This document shows positions 8,769-20,310 of a DNA stretch of 21,389 nt, piece after piece. The position numbers were made by a program, and so were the translations under genes. Source of the DNA: a virus; the IMG/VR virus record IMGVR_UViG_3300032677_000191, positions 1 through 21,389 of that record. One strand, given 5' to 3'. Below the pieces are notes generated by a model that was given only the letters and a program-made list of their open reading frames with translations, was not told where the DNA came from and did no database searches. Position 1 is the first letter of the stretch; the number at the start of each line of letters is the position of its first letter.

Positions 8769-8801
8769 TTGACCGCCAGCAGCTTGCGCAGCGCCAGCCC
8801 A

Positions 8802-8990
8802 TCGACCGCCTCGACCGCCTCAACCGCCTCGACCGCCTCGACCGCCTCGACCGCCTCGACCAAATCGACCGCCTCGACCGCCTCGACCAAATCGACCGCC
8901 TCGACCAAATCGACCGCCTCGACCAAATCGACCGCCTCGACCAGATCGACTAGATCGACTAGATCGACTAGATCGACCAGATCGATCAAA
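8802..8990 (+). repeat. Tandem 9-mer array, 21 units of TCGACYNNN
   Basis: Twenty-one consecutive 9-nt units run without a gap. The first five or six bases are nearly constant (TCGAC plus C or T) and the last three are GCC, AAA or AGA. Units of the GCC and AAA types alternate as an 18-mer from 8874 to 8936, showing expansion by duplication of unit pairs. The final units are TCGACTAGA and TCGATCAAA. Both strands read through as simple repeats (Ser-Thr-Xaa on +, Glu-Ala-Val and Asp-Leu-Val on -), but the minus-strand frame would start inside a terminator stem, so I treat it as non-coding. It may be a protein-binding array, for instance for origin organisation or partition. Confidence 0.85.
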
Positions 8991-9025
8991 AGAAATAATT
9001 GTTTTGGGGTGTTTGCTAAAAGAAA

Positions 9026-9056
9026 AGACCGCAAAACCTTATCAGTTTTGCGGTCT
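9026..9056 (-). terminator. Terminator of the minus-strand accessory operon
   Basis: AGACCGCAAAAC and GTTTTGCGGTCT form a perfect 12-bp stem with a 7-nt loop. Read on the minus strand the stem is followed by TTTTCTTTT, a good U-tract; on the plus strand what follows is A-rich. It lies 20 bases past the stop of the last minus-strand gene. Confidence 0.85.
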
Positions 9057-9076
9057 CAAAAAACATTTCCCGCGCC

Positions 9077-9208
9077 TTAATGGCGCTTATGTATTAACAG
9101 CCACAGCAGCAGCAGACCGCCTAGCACAGCTTGCGCTATCGCGAGCACCACCGCACCGAAGACTCGCACGAATGCGGCGAGCTTATTAAGATCATCATGA
9201 GTCGCCAT
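9077..9208 (-). CDS. 43-aa single-pass membrane microprotein
   Basis: Too short to be found by length alone. The start at 9208 has AGGTCGGTGG about seven bases upstream and sits 15 bases after the peptidase stop. A polar N-terminus (MATHDDLNKLAAFVRV) precedes one hydrophobic helix of about 22 residues rich in Val, Leu and Ala and ending in Trp-Leu, then the basic end LIHKRH. This predicts an N-out or N-in single-pass inner membrane protein; holin-like size, but no family is recognised. It is the last gene before the terminator. Confidence 0.6.
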   Translation of the reverse strand: MATHDDLNKLAAFVRVFGAVVLAIAQAVLGGLLLLWLLIHKRH

Positions 9209-9223
9209 CAGAGCCACCGACCT

Positions 9224-10186
9224 TCACACATAATGCCAGCGCGACTGAGCGCCATAAATCGACTCTTCAAAATCAAGAAGTTCGCTAATATCCACGCCCA
9301 TTGAGTCGAGAAAATCCGCCGCAAGCGCGGGATTGTCTTTAACGAATCGCAGTAAATCGTCAGACGAGCGACCAACGCCGACTCCATAGCCGTAGTCATC
9401 AAAATCGACGTCGCCCGCTTTGCGCGAGCAAACGAGCCGCGACTCATCAAAAGCCAGCAAAGACGAGCGCAGCGCCAGCGCGTGCGAGATAGATTGAGTC
9501 TCAAGGGGTGTGTGCTCTGACATATAACCGACGCTCAGATTGCTACACTCAGCGATCAGATTCGTATAATTCGCGGAGTCGGTAAAGACTCCCGTAGAAT
9601 CAATTTGATACCCAGCAGGTAAAAGCGGGACAATTGATTGAGCGAATGAGTCGGAGCAGCATCGACCGCCCGCTTGATGCGTAATGACCGAATGATACGC
9701 CCGCCTATCAAAAGCGATGCAAAAATCAATGTTATCAGTCAGTTCAGCGTGATTCTTAGCAAGCCAGTCCGAGCCAACCCCGCCGATTTCTTCGCTCGCA
9801 TGGAAGACATAAAGGCCAGCGACTCGAGCTTGAATCATCTCACGCATGAGCCAGACACCAGTCGTGCAGTCAGCACCCAAGCAGGTCGAGTCCGAGCCGT
9901 GCGCGAGCTTGAAAGAATCACCCGAGACGACAACTTTCTGGCGACCGCTTGTTTTGTGAACAGTATCAGTATGCGATGACCACATGACTCGCGACTCGCC
10001 GATTCGCACAATGTAATTGCCCGCGCCGTCATAGTCACCACCCAATGGCTCTAGCCACCGTGCGTTAAAAGCGTGCAGCTCTGGAGAATAAGCAGGACGA
10101 CACGACTCCAGCATCGCGCCGAGAGTCGCGATGGGTGTAAGAGCTGGAGCCGCCTTAATCTTATGTTTCTTAAAAAATCGAGTCAT
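9224..10186 (-). CDS. M20/M28-type metallopeptidase, phage encoded
   Basis: 320 aa from the ATG at 10186 (AAGGTGG seven bases upstream); longer frames would run into the neighbouring gene. All five metal-ligand positions of di-zinc aminopeptidase/carboxypeptidase families are present: SSHTDTVH (H72, D74), LGADCTTG (bridging D106, with the unusual C after it), HASEEIGG (E132 general base, E133 ligand), IAFDRR (D160), and SEHTPLE (H225). The substrate loop between is short. There is no signal peptide, so it should act in the cytoplasm on a peptide, an N-acyl amino acid or a similar amide. It follows the Cys-rich gene by one base. An uncommon gene for a phage. Confidence 0.85.
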   Translation of the reverse strand: MTRFFKKHKIKAAPALTPIATLGAMLESCRPAYSPELHAFNARWLEPLGGDYDGAGNYIVRIGESRVMWSSHTDTVHKTSGRQKVVVSGDSFKLAHGSDSTCLGADCTTGVWLMREMIQARVAGLYVFHASEEIGGVGSDWLAKNHAELTDNIDFCIAFDRRAYHSVITHQAGGRCCSDSFAQSIVPLLPAGYQIDSTGVFTDSANYTNLIAECSNLSVGYMSEHTPLETQSISHALALRSSLLAFDESRLVCSRKAGDVDFDDYGYGVGVGRSSDDLLRFVKDNPALAADFLDSMGVDISELLDFEESIYGAQSRWHYV

Positions 10187-10187
10187 A

Positions 10188-11618
10188 TTAGGCCACCTTG
10201 TCAAAGAGTGAAGCGTGTTCGGGGTCGATGTATTCAAAGACACCATCAAAATCGTGCGGCACATCGTCAGGCAGCACATAGCGACAGCGGAGCGAGTCAT
10301 CATCAACCCACGAGTCGCGAACGGCATATTGTTCAGGATAAAAGCGACCAGAAATGCGACATCTGAAAGCAAAATCCACAACAGCAGTCACCGCCCATGA
10401 CTGGACGTCCCAACCGCCGATTGAGCGCACTTTATAGACGTCAACGACATCGTCAAAAGTGTACTCGTCTGCATAATCGCAATAAGAGACACCTCGACGC
10501 TCTGCAATATCTTGCGGAACTTGTTCGCCATCAACCAAAATACAATCTTCAGAGTCGAAGAGAGCACCCTCAAAATCTGTTGCGTAATTCTCGCGACAAT
10601 GACAACACCAGCTCCGATCATATCCGCCAGAGTCGACAGTATTAAGATCGTCTTCATCTGTCTCATCCTCGCAACGCTCGCAAATGAAGCCAGAGTCACT
10701 AAGCCCCGTGGTAGTGCTTGCGACATATTCGCAGTCATCTTCGGAAATCACGAAAAACCCCTCGCAATTATCGAAGACATTTTGAATCCCATCTAAATAA
10801 GGCAGGACATATCGACCGCGCTTTTTATCCTCGATGCGCCTTATTCGAGCACCATCAAAATCGCCGCGCGTATAGCCAGCCGCTTGCAATAATCGCGCAA
10901 TAGTATCCGACGCCCCGTAGCAGCGCCCGTACAAGAATCTTTCGGGCCAGACTATACACCGCGCAGTAATTTCTTCGTCGTCATTTTCTAGATAAGCGAG
11001 CTGGAGATCAGAATCCCCATAGACGCGCACGGGATGGATAAAGGATTTGTAAGAGCTTGCGGGATGCGTCATACACGAGCGCGTATCACCCGCGCCGCGA
11101 TTCTTATCATAATGCGCCCGAGTATAGATCGACTCAATGTCATCAGCAGTCTTTGCAAACTTGACCGACCCTTGCGCAGCATATTTGCCAACGTGAATCT
11201 TATGATAAACACGCGCCGACTCTTCATCCAGACCATGAAATTGAGTCAAATACGCAACAACAGAGATTCGAGTCTGCACATCGCACGCGCCCTTGTCGGA
11301 GTCCTTTGTGTAAGCCAAGACTGAGGGATTGACTTTAGAAACGTGAAGAAAATGGTCAGAGATAGAAAAAAAACCATTCTCTCTGTAATACCAATCAGGC
11401 TTAACATAGTCGCCAAGAGCGAACCGCGCTTGCTCACGCTCTCGCCAGTTAGAATCACGATTCGCTATTTTGCGTGGTTGATATTTTGAGCCGTCATCAG
11501 AACTAGACGTGCGAGAGAAGGCCCAACTTGCAGCCTCTTGACCCGACTCAAACGCCAATGGCTTGCCATCAAGATCAAGAACCAGCTCGCCACTTTTAAG
11601 ATTGATGATATTGAACAT
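10188..11618 (-). CDS. 476-aa Cys-rich phage protein with zinc-ribbon-like pairs
   Basis: Function unknown. Residues 1-100 look like an N-terminal adaptor (LKSGELVLDLDGKPLAF). The middle has DTRSCMTHP (181-185), then HPVRVYGDSDLQLAYLENDDEEITARCIVWPE and GARIRRI, a pattern I recall from large uncharacterised phage proteins with an invariant 'SCM' motif. The C-terminal third has C313-x2-C316 and C338-C339-x-C341, likely one zinc ribbon, then further Cys at 360 and 380 in Asp/Tyr-rich surroundings. The protein is very acidic. It is preceded by a membrane microprotein gene and followed by the metallopeptidase, so the three probably work together. The coding DNA is unusually rich in GANTC. Confidence 0.75.
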   Translation of the reverse strand: MFNIINLKSGELVLDLDGKPLAFESGQEAASWAFSRTSSSDDGSKYQPRKIANRDSNWREREQARFALGDYVKPDWYYRENGFFSISDHFLHVSKVNPSVLAYTKDSDKGACDVQTRISVVAYLTQFHGLDEESARVYHKIHVGKYAAQGSVKFAKTADDIESIYTRAHYDKNRGAGDTRSCMTHPASSYKSFIHPVRVYGDSDLQLAYLENDDEEITARCIVWPERFLYGRCYGASDTIARLLQAAGYTRGDFDGARIRRIEDKKRGRYVLPYLDGIQNVFDNCEGFFVISEDDCEYVASTTTGLSDSGFICERCEDETDEDDLNTVDSGGYDRSWCCHCRENYATDFEGALFDSEDCILVDGEQVPQDIAERRGVSYCDYADEYTFDDVVDVYKVRSIGGWDVQSWAVTAVVDFAFRCRISGRFYPEQYAVRDSWVDDDSLRCRYVLPDDVPHDFDGVFEYIDPEHASLFDKVA

Positions 11619-11629
11619 TGCAAAACCCC

Positions 11630-11728
11630 TTATGCCATTGCCAAACAGATCAGAAACACAAAAAGACAGACCGCAGCAGCCGCGATCAAATCGACTAAAT
11701 CATGTAACAAATTAAACAAAACGCGCAT
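11630..11728 (-). CDS. 32-aa membrane microprotein, first gene of the operon
   Basis: Start at 11728 with a strong AAGGAG seven bases upstream; ends 11 bases before the Cys-rich gene. After a short amphipathic segment (MRVLFNLLHDLVDLI) there is one hydrophobic helix of about 18 residues with two Cys (AAAAVCLFVFLICLAMA). No positive residues follow the helix. No family is recognised. Good ribosome site, promoter upstream and tight spacing support it. Confidence 0.6.
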   Translation of the reverse strand: MRVLFNLLHDLVDLIAAAAVCLFVFLICLAMA

Positions 11729-11779
11729 ATTTTGACTCCTTGTCCATCTGGAAAATCCCAGCCCAAACAGAATAACGCG

Positions 11780-11808
11780 ATTCTATTAAAAAAGCACTAA
11801 AATGTCTT
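11780..11808 (-). promoter_or_regulatory. Predicted promoter of the accessory operon with GANTC in the -10
   Basis: On the minus strand, AAGACA (11808-11803) is followed after 17 bases by TAGAAT (11785-11780), a five-of-six match to the sigma-70 -10. The -10 overlaps GAATC, a GANTC site at 11779-11783. A GAGTC also lies in the ribosome-site region at about 11735. This is the geometry in which GANTC methylation and GcrA could affect initiation. Confidence 0.5.
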
Positions 11809-11812
11809 ACGT

Positions 11813-11840
11813 TTGCACAATAAAAAAGACGCATTATTTT
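11813..11840 (+). promoter_or_regulatory. Possible promoter for the DUF1376-like gene
   Basis: TTGCAC, 16 bases, TATTTT. It is divergent from and nearly abuts the minus-strand promoter. A transcript from it would begin at or within a few bases of ATG 11847, and no Shine-Dalgarno sequence is visible, so the mRNA could be leaderless. Confidence 0.35.
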
Positions 11841-11846
11841 ATACAT

Positions 11847-12305
11847 ATGGCAAAACAACCACCGAAAAGACTCCCCGCTTTTGCAATCGAGATCTTGACG
11901 AGCCACCCGCTCGCTTTAACGCTTCCGAGCGCCGCGTTTGGTATGCTATGCCGCTTAATTTTTCACTTTATTTTGACAGAGTGTAGACCGATTCCACCAG
12001 ACGGCGATAATTTACGCGGAATAATGCGAGCGCATCGATCGACTTGGATGGAGCACAAAAAAGAAATCATGATTATATTCGAAGAACTTGCACCGCTATT
12101 AAAAAAAGCAGATGAGCACTACAAACAGCGCCGCGCAGCTGTTACCGCCATGGGCGAAAAAGGCCGCGTCTCCCAACGACTCCGCGCACTCGCAAACAAA
12201 CCGCCGCGATCACAACCGACCGAACAGCTCACGCCAATCGCACCGAAACGCGCACCCGTCACACCAGCCCCCCAGCCCTTGCCGACCGACTCCGCATGGC
12301 GCTAG
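11847..12305 (+). CDS. DUF1376-like protein with Pro-rich tail
   Basis: 152 aa from ATG 11847; the frame is open to an ATG at 11802, but the conserved part begins LPAFAIEILTSHPLAL. The pattern (short N-terminal motif, PSAAFGMLCRLIFHF, IPPDGDNLRGIMR, a C-terminal RR.AV..MGEKG) resembles DUF1376, a phage and prophage domain often attached to replication or HNH modules. The match is weak. The tail of about 45 residues is rich in Pro, Ala and Thr. The gene shares the base composition of the adjoining minus-strand block rather than of the replication genes. Confidence 0.5.
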   Translation: MAKQPPKRLPAFAIEILTSHPLALTLPSAAFGMLCRLIFHFILTECRPIPPDGDNLRGIMRAHRSTWMEHKKEIMIIFEELAPLLKKADEHYKQRRAAVTAMGEKGRVSQRLRALANKPPRSQPTEQLTPIAPKRAPVTPAPQPLPTDSAWR

Positions 12306-12892
12306 GCGTGCAGCGCAGGTAAATGCGTCCCGCAAACCCTATGCCACCCAAAAAAAACCAGCTTTTAATCCCCATAACCCGCAGAACCCTCACCCCCGAT
12401 CATCCTAAAAAGCTCGCCCGCCTTGTTTCTTTGGGGTGTACTCCCGACAAAACGTCGTTTTGGTGTTTCTTTATGTCTCAGAACCCTTGATTCTGGTGTC
12501 TCAAAATGCGCCAGACCCTTTTAAGACTTGCGCTTTGATTAAGACCGCGCCCGACTCAATCACCAGATTAGGTCAGGAAAGGCCGAAAAAACCGCCGCGC
12601 TTCGCTCGCTTCGCTCGCTCGTGCCCCGCCGAGCCGTTGAGGCGTAAAGCCCAAAAGGCTTTGCAATAAAAAAAAAATTTTTCGCTCACTTCGTTCGCTC
12701 AGTTGCGGCGTTCGCTTCGCTCACCCCTTAGTTTCTGGTAGGTGCTACGCAGGTCAGGTGAGGACGGGGGTAGGGGAGGCTAGGGGGCAGGGCCTTCCCT
12801 CAAAAATTTTTCTGATTTTAAAAAGCAAATGGACCAGAACTAAAATTTTTTCGGCGCCTCCCTACCCGTGCCCCCCAAAAAATTTTTTCATG
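12306..12892. other. Non-coding stretch with TTCGCTC repeats
   Basis: I see no convincing gene. Positions 12601-12625 carry TTCGCTCGC repeats with a 9-nt period, and 12681-12723 carry diverged copies (TTCGCTCAC, TTCGTTCGC, TTCGCTTCG). A/T blocks at 12666-12682, 12810-12850 and 12876-12889 separate them from G-rich DNA around 12760-12790. A plus-strand frame at 12436-12669 is low-complexity and has no ribosome site. The stretch could hold the recombination site of the adjacent serine recombinase. Confidence 0.5.
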
Positions 12893-12921
12893 TTGACAGA
12901 TTGTCCTTTTTTACTTATTCT
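12893..12921 (+). promoter_or_regulatory. Sigma-70-like promoter of the serine recombinase gene
   Basis: A consensus TTGACA at 12893-12898, a 17-base spacer, and TATTCT. The gene starts about 39 bases further on. Confidence 0.65.
12895..12905 (+). promoter_or_regulatory. GACA-N3-TGTC palindrome overlapping the -35, copy 4
   Basis: GACA-GAT-TGTC shares four bases with the TTGACA box. A repressor bound here would block the recombinase promoter. The same motif flanks the iteron cluster. Confidence 0.45.
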
Positions 12922-12959
12922 GTAATGGAATCAAACGTTTAATCGAACAGGAGATGACC

Positions 12960-13514
12960 ATGAAATACGGATATGCACGCGTTTCTTCCAAAGATCAGGA
13001 CCTTTCCATCCAGCTGGAAGCCCTAAAAGCCGCATCTTGCGACATGATACGTTCCGAAAAACTGTCCGCCCGTGCTCTCGACAACCGCGAAGAGCTGAAG
13101 ATCTTGCTTCAGTTTCTTCGTGAAGGCGACACCTTGGTCGTCACAAGGGTTGACAGATTGGCTCGATCAGTGCGTGATCTCTCCAACATCGTCCATGATT
13201 TGAACGATCGCGGTATCAGCCTGATCGCCTTGCAACAGCAGATCGACACCGGTAATCCGACAGGCCGTGCGTTCTTATCCATGCTTGGTGTGTTCGCTGA
13301 GTTTGAGAATGAAATCAGGCGGGAGCGTCAAGCGGCTGGCATCCAGCGTGCCAAGGAGCAAGGTAAGTACATCGGAAAAGGCCGACCACCTGTTGTTGAC
13401 CCCACATTGATTAAACAGGCGGTGTCGCGGGGTGAAGGGGCAACGGCTATTGCGAAGCGGTTGGGGATTTCACGGGCGACAGTGTATCGGACGATGGCAA
13501 TGGAGCTGCATTGA
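12960..13514 (+). CDS. Serine recombinase of the resolvase/invertase family
   Basis: 184 aa from ATG 12960, preferred over ATG 12954 because AGGAG then sits at the right distance. The catalytic domain has YARVSSKDQD (R7, nucleophile S9), VTRVDRLARS (R64, D66, R67, R70), GRAFLSMLGVFAEFE and ENEIRRERQ; the C-terminal domain after GRPP is a Hin/resolvase helix-turn-helix (ATAIAKRLGISRATVYRTM). It is the small form, not the large serine integrase, so it is expected to resolve multimers or invert a segment. No second transposon gene is present. It has its own promoter. Confidence 0.93.
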   Translation: MKYGYARVSSKDQDLSIQLEALKAASCDMIRSEKLSARALDNREELKILLQFLREGDTLVVTRVDRLARSVRDLSNIVHDLNDRGISLIALQQQIDTGNPTGRAFLSMLGVFAEFENEIRRERQAAGIQRAKEQGKYIGKGRPPVVDPTLIKQAVSRGEGATAIAKRLGISRATVYRTMAMELH

Positions 13515-13528
13515 TTGAAGGAGAGCGG

Positions 13529-13603
13529 ATGACAAGATGGATTATCGAGATAGCAACACTCATGGCGATCATCTTCGTGGCATATATCGCCCGTTATGTG
13601 TAG
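13529..13603 (+). CDS. 24-aa membrane microprotein
   Basis: ATG 13529 has AAGGAGAG at an ideal distance. The peptide is almost wholly one hydrophobic helix (IIEIATLMAIIFVAYIA) with Arg at both ends. It follows the recombinase by 14 bases and overlaps the next frame for most of its length, so only one of the two starts may be used. Confidence 0.45.
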   Translation: MTRWIIEIATLMAIIFVAYIARYV

Positions 13604-13770
13604 AACCCGTAAGGACAGGATGGTTTAGATATGTGACCTACAGCCAGATCGACAATTATCACAGAGCTGGCTGGATGATTGTTGCGGATTTTGCGGGGAC
13701 ACATCATGGTCAATATGCCCTGATAATGTGGCGCTGCGATTGCGAGGATGGATATGAACACAGCCATTGA
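13537..13770 (+). CDS. Small phage protein, function unknown
   Basis: 77 aa. The C-terminal 50 residues (WFRYVTYSQIDNYHRAGWMIVADFAGTHHGQYALIMWRC) match a small phage protein type I recall: an aromatic strand, 'AGW', and 'THHG.Y...M'. The first 20 residues overlap the membrane microprotein in another frame and are not family-like, so the true start is uncertain; no other ATG or GTG is in frame. Its end overlaps the hydroxylase start. Confidence 0.6.
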   Translation: MDYRDSNTHGDHLRGIYRPLCVEPVRTGWFRYVTYSQIDNYHRAGWMIVADFAGTHHGQYALIMWRCDCEDGYEHSH

Positions 13771-14311
13771 AGTGATGAGTGGGTTAAATGTTTTACCCCT
13801 TTATGCCGAGTTGATGAACACGCCTTCATGGCAGGACATCACGATACGGCAGACTTATGAGGGGTCAGCCCATGCGGACACCGAGACGATCTTTATTAGA
13901 GGGCCTAAGAGTTTCTACCCAGAAGATTACTTCAACGACCTCGGCAGTTATGACTACCCCCACATAAATCTCTTTCCACAGGCCATGGTGCTGATCGAGC
14001 AGTTGCGGGAAATGTTGCCGATCACTGAATTGGGGCGGGTTTTGATAGTAAAATTAAAACCCGGCGGTTATGTAACGCCCCACATCGATGAGGGGCTGTA
14101 TGCCGATCATTTTGCGCGGTTTCATGTTGTGATCTCAACCAATTCGGAATGTGTGAACACCACGGGCGGGCAGTCCCTTCATTGGGAGGCCGGCAGCGTC
14201 TGGTGGTTTAATCACAAGATGACGCATACGGCCACCAATAACGGCTTGACCGATCGTATCCACATGATTGTTGATGCCGTCACACCCTTTACGGACAACT
14301 TGTCAAATTAA
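13754..14311 (+). CDS. Fe(II)/2-oxoglutarate Asp/Asn beta-hydroxylase-like protein
   Basis: 185 aa from ATG 13754 (GAGG six bases upstream; ATG 13748 is also possible). The double-stranded beta-helix signature is visible: VKLKPGGYVTPHIDEG gives the H-x-D pair (H110, D112), and WWFNHKMTHTATNN followed by DRIHMIVD gives the distal His (H158, or H154) and the 2-oxoglutarate-binding Arg (R168). Spacing of His to Arg is ten residues, as in Asp/Asn hydroxylases. Substrate unknown: a protein side chain or a small molecule. Phages carry such enzymes at times, occasionally to modify virion or host proteins. Confidence 0.8.
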   Translation: MNTAIEVMSGLNVLPLYAELMNTPSWQDITIRQTYEGSAHADTETIFIRGPKSFYPEDYFNDLGSYDYPHINLFPQAMVLIEQLREMLPITELGRVLIVKLKPGGYVTPHIDEGLYADHFARFHVVISTNSECVNTTGGQSLHWEAGSVWWFNHKMTHTATNNGLTDRIHMIVDAVTPFTDNLSN

Positions 14312-15291: not shown

Positions 15292-15529
15292 CATGATCGA
15301 GCGATGCGCAGGTGTTGTGAGTAAATGGTCAGAGCGTGCTATTACGCATGAAACTGTTAATGATTTTGCAGCTGTGTTCGGTATGGAGCTGAATTGGAAT
15401 TTAGCGCCAGTTGAGATCGAAACGCCCAAGGAGCCGCAAGATCCGCAACAATATGATATTTTTACCGAGTTATCGGGTGAGGATAAATACGCCATGAAAA
15501 GCTGGCGTGAAAACTCTGGTTTATTATGA
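15275..15529 (+). CDS. Hypothetical protein directly upstream of the terminase
   Basis: 84 aa; AGGAGAAG is well placed for ATG 15275. The N-terminus is helical (MIERCAGVVSKWSERAITHETVNDFAAVFGMEL), the C-terminus acidic and Pro-rich. It overlaps the terminase start (TTATGACG). Position would suit a small terminase partner, but it has no recognisable helix-turn-helix, so I leave it unnamed. Confidence 0.6.
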   Translation: MISMDNMIERCAGVVSKWSERAITHETVNDFAAVFGMELNWNLAPVEIETPKEPQDPQQYDIFTELSGEDKYAMKSWRENSGLL

Positions 15530-17412
15530 CGGTAAAATCATCGAAATGGCTCAAACTGTTTCAAGACTTTATCGCGGATATTCGTATCTCGTCGAAGGAA
15601 TCAACGTCGCAAGATGAACGTGGCGCGAAGCTGGAGTTGTGGGAGAGCCAGCGGCGTTTTATTCAAGAAGTCGGCTCTGGCCTCGATAATGACATCCATA
15701 AGTTTTATTGTTTAAAATCGCGCCAGCTTGGTGTGACGACTGTGTCATTGGCGATCGATGTGTTCTGGATGGCGCTGCACCCCAACATCATCGGTTGCCT
15801 TGTGACAGATACGGAGAAAAACCGTGAAGCGAACAGAATGCTGCTCGAGAAATATGTTGAGTCGTTTCCCGAAGGGTACTTTGGGGATACGTTCAAGATT
15901 GTACGATCCAATCGCCAGATGCTGCAGTTCTCAAATGGCGCACGACTTGACTTGCTCGTCGCAGGGACGAAAGACAAAGGGACGTCATGGGGCGAAGGTG
16001 TTGGGTACGCCTTCGGTCATTTGACGGAGGTTGCGGCGTATGGGTCGGCAGAGGGTTTGAAATCTCTAGAAGAAGGTTTCGCTCAGACCAATCCAAATCG
16101 TTTGTTTATTTATGAGTCCACAGCAAAAGGTTTTAACCATTGGCGCACACGCTATGTCGATGGTCTTAATGATCCGCTGACGGCACGCTCGTTCTTTGTT
16201 GGATGGTGGGCTGGCGACACGAATAAGATTGCCCGTAAAGATCCGCGGTTCCTACAGCATGGTCTTCATCCCCCTGAGTTTGAAGAACGCGAGATGATCG
16301 ATGCGGTCAAAGAGTTTTATGGTCACAAGATCAGCGCCGAGCAATTAGCGTGGATAAGATGGAAGACAGAGACCGCAGGTGCCGAGCAGACCTTGCTCGA
16401 TCAGAACCAGCCATGGACGGCAGAACAAGCCTTCGTGCAAACAGGTTACTCGTTCTTTCAGACCCGTGTCATTACAGCTGATATTAAGAAAATTGAAGAA
16501 GATAATGTACGCTACAGAGCCTATCGTTATGAGGTTGATGGCGACTTCTTTAATTTCAGAATGTATGAGTTAAAGCCCGGCGTTGACTCACCTGATGATA
16601 TTGAATTGAAGGTGTGGGAAGAGCCTGTTGAAGGTGGCAAATATGTTATCGGAATGGACCCGGCGTATGGCCGAAACGACCACAAAGATCATCATGTCAT
16701 TTCCGTATGGAGATGTTATGCTGATCGAGTTGTACAAGTTGCGGAATATTGTACAGCGGATGTGGAAGCAAAGCACGCGGCTTGGGTTCTTTTTCATTTG
16801 TCATCTGCTTATGTGGATTGCTTGGTGAACCCTGAGATCGGCGGCCCCGGCGCGTTGGTGCTTGGAGAGTTCGATCATTTACGCCAGTTACTATCACTTG
16901 AGAGTAATGCCGAACGTGTGAAAGCGCGTGGGTGGGAAGACGCTGCCGCGCACGCTCGTATGTATCTATACAAACGACCGGACTCAATGGGCGCAGGTTA
17001 TGTGCTGGGCTTTGCAACGAACTGGTCGACAAAATCTGTGCTGATGCACCAGCTGCGTGGATGCTATGTGTCGCGTGAGCTTGAGATCAAATCGAAAGCC
17101 CTGTTGCACGAGATGTCGTTGGTTGTTGTTGAAGACGGCAATATCGGTGCACCTGAATCACGCGATGAAAATTGTAAGGACGACCGCGTTTTTGCGATGG
17201 CCTTTGCGGTGCGTGCATGGAAAGACTGGACGCAGAAAGACCTGATGGCGCAGGGGTTGACCTATGAAGCGGTCTCATCTGCGCAACGCGGCGAGAAACC
17301 AACTGTCGCAACAACAGTTAATCGTATCGTTTTTAATTATTTAAAGACGATGCAAGAGCAAGCCGACAACGAAGAGGAGCCCGCAACATGGCAGACGGAG
17401 TACGGACTGTGA
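15526..17412 (+). CDS. Terminase large subunit
   Basis: 628 aa. The ATPase domain has the adenine-binding WESQRRFI (39-46), a Walker A variant CLKSRQLGVTT (62-72), Walker B with catalytic Glu in FGHLTEV (E168), and the coupling motif ESTAKG (197-202). The RNase H-like nuclease follows: GMDPAYGRND (D378), VNPEIGGPG, and a C-terminal CKDDRVFAMAFA supplying the last acidic residue. It pumps DNA into the prohead and cuts genome ends. It begins in a 4-nt overlap with the preceding gene and overlaps the next by 25 nt. The portal that it docks to is encoded on the other strand. Confidence 0.95.
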   Translation: MTVKSSKWLKLFQDFIADIRISSKESTSQDERGAKLELWESQRRFIQEVGSGLDNDIHKFYCLKSRQLGVTTVSLAIDVFWMALHPNIIGCLVTDTEKNREANRMLLEKYVESFPEGYFGDTFKIVRSNRQMLQFSNGARLDLLVAGTKDKGTSWGEGVGYAFGHLTEVAAYGSAEGLKSLEEGFAQTNPNRLFIYESTAKGFNHWRTRYVDGLNDPLTARSFFVGWWAGDTNKIARKDPRFLQHGLHPPEFEEREMIDAVKEFYGHKISAEQLAWIRWKTETAGAEQTLLDQNQPWTAEQAFVQTGYSFFQTRVITADIKKIEEDNVRYRAYRYEVDGDFFNFRMYELKPGVDSPDDIELKVWEEPVEGGKYVIGMDPAYGRNDHKDHHVISVWRCYADRVVQVAEYCTADVEAKHAAWVLFHLSSAYVDCLVNPEIGGPGALVLGEFDHLRQLLSLESNAERVKARGWEDAAAHARMYLYKRPDSMGAGYVLGFATNWSTKSVLMHQLRGCYVSRELEIKSKALLHEMSLVVVEDGNIGAPESRDENCKDDRVFAMAFAVRAWKDWTQKDLMAQGLTYEAVSSAQRGEKPTVATTVNRIVFNYLKTMQEQADNEEEPATWQTEYGL

Positions 17413-18315: not shown

Positions 18316-18339
18316 GGGGCTCTGAGCCCCTTATTTTTT
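18307..18339. terminator. Bidirectional terminator between convergent terminase and portal units
   Basis: A perfect 15-bp stem (AAAAAATAAGGGGCT with its complement) around the loop CTG. The A and T ends give a U-tract on both strands. The stop codons of the plus-strand zinc-ribbon gene and of the minus-strand portal gene are both inside the stem. Confidence 0.92.
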
Positions 18340-20109
18340 CTTATGTGTTTGAGCTTTAAGTTCTTGCTCTTTTTCCGCTGCTTCGGCGCGAGCAATTTCG
18401 CGGCGCATAATACCAGCGCGAAGTTCGTCTGGATCGCTGACATCGACCTTGTCCACCAACTCGGCTGGTGACATAGCGCCGATGCGTTGCAAGTTGAAGG
18501 CAAGCTCTTTGGCGTCTTGTGAGAACGCTGGTGATGAAGAGTGTGAATCAACAGTGAGCGAGACGTCATCAGGTAGATCAGCAAAGGTAAATGTGACGGG
18601 CACAAGACCTTTGGCAGGTGGGATTAAAATCTTTTCCTCACCGGGAGCTGATGAATCTTCAAAACCCGCTGCCTCTTTTGGCACCCACGCGATCATCTTA
18701 TTGTCGACGTGTGCGCGGGCGAGATCGAGCATAAGTGCACCGAATTTTTCAACGTCACGCTCGATCAAGAGGGCACGGTCCTTAAAGCGTGGTGAGAACA
18801 TGCGCACAAGTGTTTCAGCGTGCTGGGCTGATCTAACACCTGCCTCGCCCTGACCTTTGGCGATGGGCGGTAAGCCCATCATCTCGTCAAACATACGCTC
18901 ATATTCGTGCAGCGATTCCCAGAGAGCTTGAGGGATTTGGACGTTGTCACGCTCGATCTTGGCGTTTGGGTTTGAATCAGTCCAATACCCGCCCGGCTTG
19001 TTAAAGCGGGATAAGGCTTGCTGGTTGACACCTGTCGAGCCCACAAATTTGGTTGCAGGTTCTTCTTGTTTGCGAAGCATCTTATTGATGCCTGTGATGC
19101 GCGAATTGATGGCTTCCTGAAGCAGGACAAGACGGGTGATTTCAGACGCACCCCAGAAATAATCAGGTACGGGGTTGGCGCAGAACATGTTGAAAGGGTG
19201 ACTACCCCTAAGAACGTCGTCAGTCTGCTTGGTGTGCGTATTATATGAAAAAGCACTGGTTATCTGATATTTGCCGTTGATGAGGATGTTATCCCCGATG
19301 ATCTGAAATGTCGCCCAATCGCCACGGGCATCATCCCAGACCCAGAGTTCATCCATCTCCAGCATCGAGGACTCAACAGCTGGATCGACGCTGGCGCGAG
19401 GCTGTGACATCCAGTCAACAATACCACGGCTTTGATTTGGCAAACCCGCACCACCTGCTTGGAAAGGATAAAGACCGCCAGTGACGATATTCATGGCTGT
19501 GCCAGAAGCATCCGACAGACTGCCTTTTGAGCTTTGCATATAGGCTTTGGCGCGTTCTTTCAGGTCTGACTCATCAGGGCGACCTCTTACAAGGTTGCGG
19601 AATTGAGCAGGTGAAATCAGCATCCGATGGTTGAAGGCTTCCATGTCTGCATCGAGCTTTGTGTAATTCTCATGCAGAACACCGAAGTTTTCTGGTTGAA
19701 CAAGTTGACACGAAAATTCTTTGTTGACGACATTTGCTTTCGTGAGGCCCAGACCTTTACGCAAGGCAATACCAACGGCTTGCGAAATCAAATTGTCCGA
19801 ATCAGTCTGCCGGCAAATCTTTCTGATTCGCGCCGCCGCGACACGACCTTTTGATTCATTGACGATGTTTGGAATGTCGGGGTCTGTGATCGCAAAGCGT
19901 AAAGAGACGGGTGAAAAAAGCAGCGACTCAAGATCATCGAGCGAGGCGTAAGTCTTATTAAACATCGCCGGAGCTGACGCATCGGCTGATCCAGAATTTG
20001 CGTAAGTCTCGAAAAATGCGCCACGATTTTGTCTGGCTTGCCTAGAAGACATGCAAATATTCGCTAGATTTCGGGCGAATGATTCAAGGTCTCTTTTTGG
20101 TATGTGCAT
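18331..20109 (-). CDS. Portal protein
   Basis: 592 aa from ATG 20109, which has AGGATGGG upstream; the longer open frame to 20289 crosses the promoter region. Typical portal features for this phage type are visible: SSRQARQNRGAFFETYANSGS near the start, a SPVSLRF segment, GGLYPFQAGG, RGIVDWMSQP, LDELWVWDDARGDW (written MDELWVWDD here), HPFNMFCANPVPDYFWGASEI, INSRITGINKMLRKQEEP, FNKPGGYWTD, and GEAGVRSAQHAETLVRMFSPRFKDRALLIE. The C-terminal 90 residues are acidic, ending in a Lys-rich tail. It forms the dodecameric gate for DNA at the capsid vertex. Its orientation opposite to the terminase is uncommon. Confidence 0.93.
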   Translation of the reverse strand: MHIPKRDLESFARNLANICMSSRQARQNRGAFFETYANSGSADASAPAMFNKTYASLDDLESLLFSPVSLRFAITDPDIPNIVNESKGRVAAARIRKICRQTDSDNLISQAVGIALRKGLGLTKANVVNKEFSCQLVQPENFGVLHENYTKLDADMEAFNHRMLISPAQFRNLVRGRPDESDLKERAKAYMQSSKGSLSDASGTAMNIVTGGLYPFQAGGAGLPNQSRGIVDWMSQPRASVDPAVESSMLEMDELWVWDDARGDWATFQIIGDNILINGKYQITSAFSYNTHTKQTDDVLRGSHPFNMFCANPVPDYFWGASEITRLVLLQEAINSRITGINKMLRKQEEPATKFVGSTGVNQQALSRFNKPGGYWTDSNPNAKIERDNVQIPQALWESLHEYERMFDEMMGLPPIAKGQGEAGVRSAQHAETLVRMFSPRFKDRALLIERDVEKFGALMLDLARAHVDNKMIAWVPKEAAGFEDSSAPGEEKILIPPAKGLVPVTFTFADLPDDVSLTVDSHSSSPAFSQDAKELAFNLQRIGAMSPAELVDKVDVSDPDELRAGIMRREIARAEAAEKEQELKAQTHKKK

Positions 20110-20151
20110 GTCATCCCATCCTATCGTTTTGATAACGCACAACTTTTCAGA

Positions 20152-20189
20152 TTTATATATTGACAAGCGTTCAATATACAACGTAATCT
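20152..20189. promoter_or_regulatory. Divergent promoters over a 23-nt palindrome
   Basis: TATATTGA (20156-20163) and TCAATATA (20171-20178) are exact inverted repeats with a 7-nt spacer. On the minus strand TTGTAT (20181-20176), 18 bases, TATAAA (20157-20152) would drive the portal. On the plus strand TTGACA (20160-20165) with a weak TAATCT 18 bases on could drive the microprotein unit. The palindrome overlaps both, so one regulator could control both. Confidence 0.5.
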
Positions 20190-20244
20190 TTTGTGGTGTT
20201 GAGATGGTAAGCTCTCTCGACGTTCCCAGCAATAGGAGTTTAAA

Positions 20245-20310
20245 ATGACTTTTAACGACACATGCGAAAAGCGCGGTAAAAAGTCCCACAAGCGCGGTAT
20301 GCGTAAGTAA
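20245..20310 (+). CDS. 21-aa basic microprotein
   Basis: ATG 20245 is preceded by ATAGGAG at a good distance. The product has ten Lys/Arg among 21 residues (MTFNDTCEKRGKK, then HKRGMRK). It is the first gene of the divergent plus-strand unit and stands alone between a promoter and a hairpin, which supports real expression. Likely nucleic-acid binding or structural; no family recognised. Confidence 0.6.
   Translation: MTFNDTCEKRGKKSHKRGMRK

Follow-up and report, generated by a model that had tools for sequence, protein, structure and literature searches.

What do four tightly packed minus-strand genes do in the virus record IMGVR_UViG_3300032677_000191, a stretch of 21,389 bases that is referred to here, in its entirety, as the window? 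Two of them, m2 and m3, encode a protein with an SCM (Ser-Cys-Met) motif and a putative metallopeptidase, and these prove to be a near-obligate pair and thus a real joint system. The reading preferred here, to which a probability of about 0.42 may be given, is that the pair is an early establishment module of mobile elements, for host take-over or counter-defense, with m2 supplying the target and m3 hydrolyzing an amide or peptide bond. An earlier note on this DNA had described four closely spaced genes ending in a terminator of their own, and the layout bears this out: the intergenic gaps are 11 nucleotides (nt) between m1 and m2, 1 nt between m2 and m3, and 6 nt between m3 and m4, and a hairpin follows. 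Lengths of proteins are in amino acids (aa).

11630-11728, minus strand: m1, a 32-aa single-pass membrane microprotein, sequence MRVLFNLLHDLVDLIAAAAVCLFVFLICLAMA
10188-11618, minus strand: m2, the 476-aa SCM/zinc protein
9224-10186, minus strand: m3, a 320-aa metallopeptidase/amidohydrolase of predicted clan-MH fold, putatively cytoplasmic
9077-9217, minus strand: m4, a single-pass membrane microprotein of 46 aa (start at GTG 9217) or 43 aa (start at ATG 9208)
9025-9057, minus strand: the operon's intrinsic terminator, a hairpin with a 14-bp stem (-21.4 kcal/mol, z -6.3)
11780-11808, minus strand: promoter-like site AAGACA-17-TAGAAT, a weak candidate with 9/12 consensus matches

Coupling of the two central genes

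Do m2 and m3 belong together, or do they merely happen to be neighbors in this phage? Peptidase loci were gathered from viral contigs, bacterial genomes, phage records and plasmids and searched with profiles of both proteins, which gave 102 non-redundant peptidase loci; 10 at contig edges were left out and 92 counted. An SCM gene lies within 1.6 kb of the peptidase in 89 of these 92 loci with adequate flank, and is lacking in 3. In most cases (80) it is directly upstream on the same strand; the remainder have it upstream after a gap (3), upstream on the opposite strand (5) or downstream (1). In three of the 10 edge loci, which have a short downstream flank, at least 1.9 kb of sequence is available upstream without an SCM gene in it; if these are taken as lacking the partner, the figure becomes 89/95. 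Approached from the other side, with a closer subset of m2 homologues as query, a peptidase was found at 53 of 58 non-redundant SCM loci, or 53/56 after allowing for 2 of the 5 exceptions, which are cut by a contig end. For the earlier note, independent occurrence in relatives would have spoken against the idea; the two core genes do not occur in that way. Since the two samples have loci in common, and the first was ordered by likeness to the window m3, the coupling figure applies to this peptidase branch.

The pair is retained through strand flips (L051, L061, L066, L068 and L082) and a swap of gene order (L112), and its arrangement has changed at least seven times on the peptidase tree. That the coupling persists across phage families, plasmids, prophages, strand flips and order swaps suggests that the function needs both proteins. 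In L098 (a Mesorhizobium contig) and L136 (a Methylobacterium plasmid), a stretch of a few kb contains the peptidase gene twice and the SCM gene at least twice; in these the pair has apparently been either duplicated as a unit or acquired twice.

By tblastn, m3 is found in 382 phage records and m2 in 53. Carriers include T7-like phages, phages of about 120 kb, prophages and plasmids, from Alpha-, Beta- and Gammaproteobacteria and from a small number of further phyla; a T7-type RNA polymerase is present in 5 of 46 sampled records. When 289 genomes from the G003 class were searched, a strong match was obtained in one, and that one was G003 itself, chosen as a carrier, so that this is a mobile-element gene rather than a core host gene. 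Nearly all occurrences of the pair are in phages, prophages and plasmids.

The predicted hydrolase and its partner

The m3 protein matches phrog_4191 (“peptidase”) with an E value of 5.7e-69 over residues 22-258, its catalytic region. That its metal ligands are intact, as the earlier note held, is confirmed in the wider family: residues H72, D74, D106, E132, E133, D160 and H225, comprising the metal ligands and the catalytic pair, are invariant in 56 sequences and follow the clan MH co-catalytic metal site pattern H-x-D, D, E-E, D/E, H. The AlphaFold2 model (mean predicted local distance difference test score, pLDDT, 91.7) resembles tripeptidase 3rza (VIA Z 24.9) and TET1 2wyr (Z 23.5), and more generally gives Z 20-25 over 215-229 residues with PepT-like tripeptidases, TET/M42 enzymes, DapE, LysK and carboxypeptidase G2 (CPG2). 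On this basis m3 can confidently be modeled as a lidless PepT/M42/M28-fold (clan MH) hydrolase with all of its catalytic residues, and activity is predicted. It scores below the Pfam M28 (PF04389) cut-off, at 14.3 versus 21.3 bits, and is therefore named here by clan and PHROG family rather than as an M28 member; a homologue, L136:6929-8590, passes that cut-off with 21.7 bits.

Compared with PepT, M42 TET and M28 peptidases of known structure (3rza, 3gb0, 2wyr), m3 shares the catalytic-domain fold and ligand pattern, but it aligns over about 227 residues at 18-22% identity, skipping their extra (lid/dimerization) domain, and has a C-terminal helical extension of its own. Lacking a lid domain, m3 should have an active site that large substrates can reach.

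One possibility is that m3 is simply a PepT-like peptidase that finishes the breakdown of host peptides for phage protein synthesis, with m2 as a binding accessory. Its best structural matches, to tripeptidase/PepT and TET aminopeptidases, and its lack of an export signal (by inspection) are what would be expected of such an enzyme; hosts already encode PepT-like peptidases, however, and nutrient scavenging would leave unexplained both the coupling to a large, fast-diverging zinc protein and the presence of the pair on conjugative plasmids. We consider it unlikely.

The partner protein is less easily placed. It matches phrog_6980, a family of no assigned function, with an E value of 1.9e-7 (phrog_6980 in turn matches 29 of 53 m2-family members), and a search against Pfam gave no family. 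The zinc-type cysteine pairs and SCM motif remarked on in the earlier note are both well conserved: a 53-member alignment shows no variation at C182 and M183 and hardly any at S181, and the cysteines C313/C316 and C338/C341 (C-x2-C/C-x2-C) are kept in 10 diverse homologues. Other conserved positions are Y165, P196, Y200, R220, Y234, G256-A257 and P273-Y274-x-D276, so that m2 has the full family pattern of SCM block, R, Y and PYxD positions, and C-x2-C...C-x2-C. An invariant C182 within a conserved block is compatible with catalysis, although no proof of it, and makes this residue a candidate catalytic cysteine. The AlphaFold2 model has a mean pLDDT of 88 and a predicted template modeling score (pTM) of only 0.54, suggesting several domains of uncertain arrangement. 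As judged from these data, m2 is a protein without a recognizable fold and with a predicted zinc site.

Resemblance to structures in the PDB lies mostly in residues 148-255 and is to GNATs, other parts of m2 having barely been compared; the best Z is 5.2, with a root-mean-square deviation of 3.1-3.4 over 83 residues, which is in the range of chance resemblance, and the best Foldseek E value is 0.27. A GNAT fold for the SCM domain is thus a matter of marginal structural resemblance, and it has been retained as part of a rival explanation: that the two proteins form and cleave amide bonds. The SCM domain, as a divergent acyl- or aminoacyl-transferase of GNAT-like type that has C182 at its active site, would attach a group to a protein or metabolite, and m3 would remove or trim it. 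The PDB folds ranking for residues 148-255 are nearly all GNATs, including the aminoacyl-transferring ATE1, MprF and L-PGS, although at Z values of about 5 these could arise by chance; by eye, the conserved m2 columns also show no equivalent of the GNAT coenzyme A (CoA) loop, Q/R-x-x-G-x-G/A after strand 4, m2 having YGRCYGASDTIARLL and the aligned family keeping Y-G. In a Foldseek search of viral models, a portion of m2 matched a phage protein named “Amidoligase enzyme” (A0A6J7X5D3, E 1.7e-4). As an identification this link was rejected: it is one viral-model match, and a search of 46 records turned up no Amidoligase_2 gene, with an uninformative control that likewise gave no match. The m3 fold is common to the deacylases DapE, ArgE and LysK, and in the large-phage fragment L007 a peptidase lacking an SCM partner lies 3 kb before ATP-grasp ligase genes of the R2K and TTL types, but this neighborhood is a single case. 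Taken together, such an amide-forming and -cleaving pair seems quite unlikely. The L007 locus (9404-13886) has the additional peculiarity that a GroEL gene accompanies the two ligase genes after the peptidase.

A relationship with PcfJ (PF14284) was also looked at. By eye, m2 resembles it in having a Cys-containing block of the form “HC[VI]...Y” that precedes beta strands; there was no Pfam hit, and hhalign with a four-sequence PcfJ profile gave an E value of 0.29. Profile comparison thus lends the relationship no support, and it was set aside.

Microproteins and layout of the locus

Are the two microproteins part of the same system? Among the closest relatives is contig L002, whose identity to the window ranges from 90% for the terminase through 66% for h1 and 62% for m3 to 44% for h8 and 41% for m2. 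Its gene order is the same: divergent h1, then m2 and m3 flanked by membrane proteins (31 aa before, 35 aa after), and a hairpin terminator. The m1 counterpart in L002 (MKILKIVLGDLVELVCLTLFLGAIFALSLAI), in the same position, aligns with a score of 42 versus 23 +/- 4.6 for shuffles (p 0.0015), and the leader GGACAAGGAGTCAAAA ahead of m1, which in the window is preceded by a near-perfect AAGGAG ribosome site, is nearly identical there. The m4 counterpart has FGxVVLAxxQ and a KRH end in common with m4, and scores 50 versus 23 +/- 4.4, a value reached by 0 of 2000 shuffles. In L014 and L015 a single-pass gene occupies the m4 position, followed by a hairpin, and m1 was not found in either, leaving the window and L002 as the only contigs with m1; the GC-rich hairpin plus T-run 3' of m4 is common to L002, L014 and L015. 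Together with the window these form a well-supported clade (SH-like approximate likelihood-ratio test, SH-aLRT, 99), with an m4-like gene after the peptidase in all four. A similar-looking gene also follows the peptidase in Rhizobium phage Pasto and in L035.

Given similarity beyond shuffles in L002, and a gene in the place of m4 but no m1 in L014 and L015, the microproteins are real and clade-specific, a local addition to the pair. The composition proposed in the earlier note thus stands in part: two membrane microproteins are present and bracket the pair, but they do not belong to the conserved system, m4 being limited to four contigs and m1 to two. A loose scan recognized a microprotein beside the pair upstream in 6 of 69 loci and downstream in 6 of 69, and a role for them as core components of the system was rejected, since they are recognizable in few of the loci that carry the pair. 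A match of m4 to ACT_6 (E 0.0045, below cut-off) was set aside as a chance match of its hydrophobic segment.

These observations bear on another possible function, superinfection exclusion, in which the two microproteins would be envelope effectors processed or regulated by the enzyme pair. Their position on either side of the pair in the window, and the m4-like genes at the same place in the four related contigs, would suit this arrangement; with a similarity that is clade-level only, and most carriers of the pair having no recognizable microprotein next to it, exclusion of this kind is very unlikely to be what the pair is for.

Upstream, the plus-strand gene h1 (probable start 11844) diverges from the four-gene operon. 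The promoter credited to the operon in the earlier note could not be sustained: the window has 8 promoter-like sites versus 4.1 +/- 1.8 in the shuffled background, no clear excess, and the 9/12 site listed above does not clearly exceed that background. Nor is the description of a plus-strand genome exact, because the minus strand also carries a portal-like gene (18331-20289, named from its sequence, with only a weak SU10_portal Pfam match), while the gene for the large terminase subunit (15526-17412) is on the plus strand. This unusual head-gene layout is kept in L002.

The minus-strand portal-like gene might be taken to favor a further role for the pair, as a protease module that matures the head or tail proteins of the virion. 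The m3 fold, however, is of an exopeptidase/deacylase type, and the pair is found among early or replication genes in characterized phages and on plasmids, one of them typed as conjugative; a maturation role is accordingly highly improbable.

Several other features of the window may be mentioned. On the 3' side of the operon terminator is a tandem array (8800-8985) of 9-bp TCGACC units, and arrays are found at the same place in L002 (9207-9266, 18-bp units) and L015 (6319-6598, 58-bp units); the unit sequences of the three are unrelated, and the L002 and L015 contigs end within the array. A serine recombinase gene of the resolvase/invertase type (12954-13514, plus strand; PF00239, E 1e-40), with no match in L002, is a possible source of inverted gene blocks. 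Thirteen perfect ATA repeats (2775-2813), inside an open reading frame at 2462-2866, encode 12 asparagines and are a possible phase-variable or slippage site. A scan of the window for known RNA families found none.

A putative role at entry, and named relatives of the pair

How might the pair act on a cell that is being entered or taken over? The module would be expressed when a phage or conjugative element enters or takes over its host, which in the window phage would mean early expression. In the scheme envisaged, m3 would be an active dinuclear-metal exopeptidase or amidohydrolase of PepT/M42/M28 fold, and m2 its physical partner, in which a Cys-dependent (SCM) domain and zinc-binding repeats would recognize, or chemically prime, a particular host molecule. 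Between them they would strip a peptide or amide group from this target or cut it back, disarming a defense or redirecting a host protein. In the window and its closest relatives, one or two co-transcribed microproteins may tether the module to the inner membrane, or act there.

Besides the coupling itself, the invariant active site and the confinement to mobile elements, gene neighborhoods speak for this. The pair lies ahead of the primase in phages KP34, VP93 and Buco, and the authors of the CB5 genome paper defined the region of the peptidase as early, the peptidase being the sole gene that they named in it (PMC6115819). In Pasto an ArdA-like antirestriction gene directly precedes the m2-type gene. 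On a Sphingopyxis conjugative plasmid the pair lies between ParB-like and toprim genes, with DUF2958 nearby, and on a Limnohabitans plasmid it is near N6-methylase and relaxase genes; leading regions of plasmids are anti-defense hotspots, in a text that mentions no peptidase (PMC11541004). The fast divergence of m2 and m3 between the window and L002, relative to their terminases, was also counted in favor of a role at entry. RIIA-like genes directly follow the pair at 13 loci, and T4 rII is known for resisting Rex exclusion; all 13 belong to one rhizobial phage clade, and the association was rejected as a general rule.

A number of observations weigh against such a role. The neighbors are mixed rather than uniformly anti-defense, integrases, terminases and DNA metabolism genes being equally common nearby; the RIIA link represents one lineage, and ArdA was seen once. 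Other accessory genes also diverge fast between the window and L002, as h8 does. PADLOC, which covers defense rather than counter-defense, has no family for m2, m3 or KP34 gp10, and identity with a known defense system was rejected for want of a match. More distant peptidases have no SCM gene (L006, L007 and L128, which form one group, and L120, L121 and L122), nor is an SCM partner annotated for the peptidase of Thermus phage P23-45, so that the hydrolase can apparently work without an SCM protein. Fusions of m2- and m3-type proteins were looked for and not found. On balance, the context favors an early or establishment role, and does not choose among the functions suggested in the earlier note, namely peptide inactivation, host take-over and exclusion.

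Some of these SCM-less peptidases have unusual neighborhoods of their own. In L006 (7098-10340) the peptidase is flanked by an NFACT-R domain gene, with a NADAR-domain gene slightly further away, and the related P23-45 gp56 (L215 4004-4888) lies a few genes before annotated chaperone/Lon protease and von Willebrand A genes.

If the pair does serve counter-defense or host take-over, its target should be a bacterial barrier or hub common to hosts from Klebsiella to Bradyrhizobium and sphingomonads. A more sweeping version of the idea can be put forward tentatively: this would be a mobile-element-wide two-protein system of podoviruses, larger phages and conjugative plasmids, with membrane-anchored variants, in which the choice of target falls to a Cys/zinc protein and its editing at entry to a dedicated MH-clan hydrolase, thereby neutralizing a common bacterial barrier. 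Two genes so far annotated separately in several hundred phage genomes, as “hypothetical” and “putative peptidase,” and representing two orphan families, can now be treated as a single system that is open to testing, for which m3 offers a predicted active site and m2 a candidate catalytic cysteine.

Is anything of the kind already known? The earlier note knew of no named phage system with this composition. No paper on the pair as a system, or on the function of the peptidase, was found in a literature search that most subscription papers fell outside, and the genome papers for KP34-type phages and CB5 list only a “putative peptidase”; as a coupled pair, m2-m3 looks undescribed. Its parts, however, are annotated without function in KP34, VP93 and Pasto, and the composition is not peculiar to the window phage, because the pair is annotated, again without a function, in hundreds of phages.

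Among named phages, Klebsiella phage KP34 carries the pair as adjacent, co-directional gp10 (hypothetical, 655 aa) and gp11 (putative peptidase), as do Vibrio phage VP93 (gp6-gp7), Shigella phage Buco (gp9-gp10) and Vibrio phage GHSM17 (gp40-gp39). These KP34-type pairs have the same m3 active site, and their SCM motif and invariant m2 residues can be aligned with those of the window, but identity is only 22-32%; the SCM proteins differ in having a longer, poorly alignable N-terminal part, and the genes are in a plus-strand early region before the primase, where the microprotein pair was not recognized. In Bradyrhizobium phage BDU-MI-1, ARQ95236-ARQ95237 are in the same order as in the window; this phage differs in its size, 121 kb, and in the rIIA gene that follows the pair, as in the rest of its clade. 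Pasto offers CPT_Pasto_004-005, a hypothetical protein and a zinc peptidase 28% and 37% identical to the window m2 and m3, respectively, and, as in the window, a single-pass gene (35 aa) directly 3' of the peptidase; here, though, it lies on the sense strand, in an early region of a T7-like phage that carries an RNA polymerase, and the ArdA-like gene is beside it.

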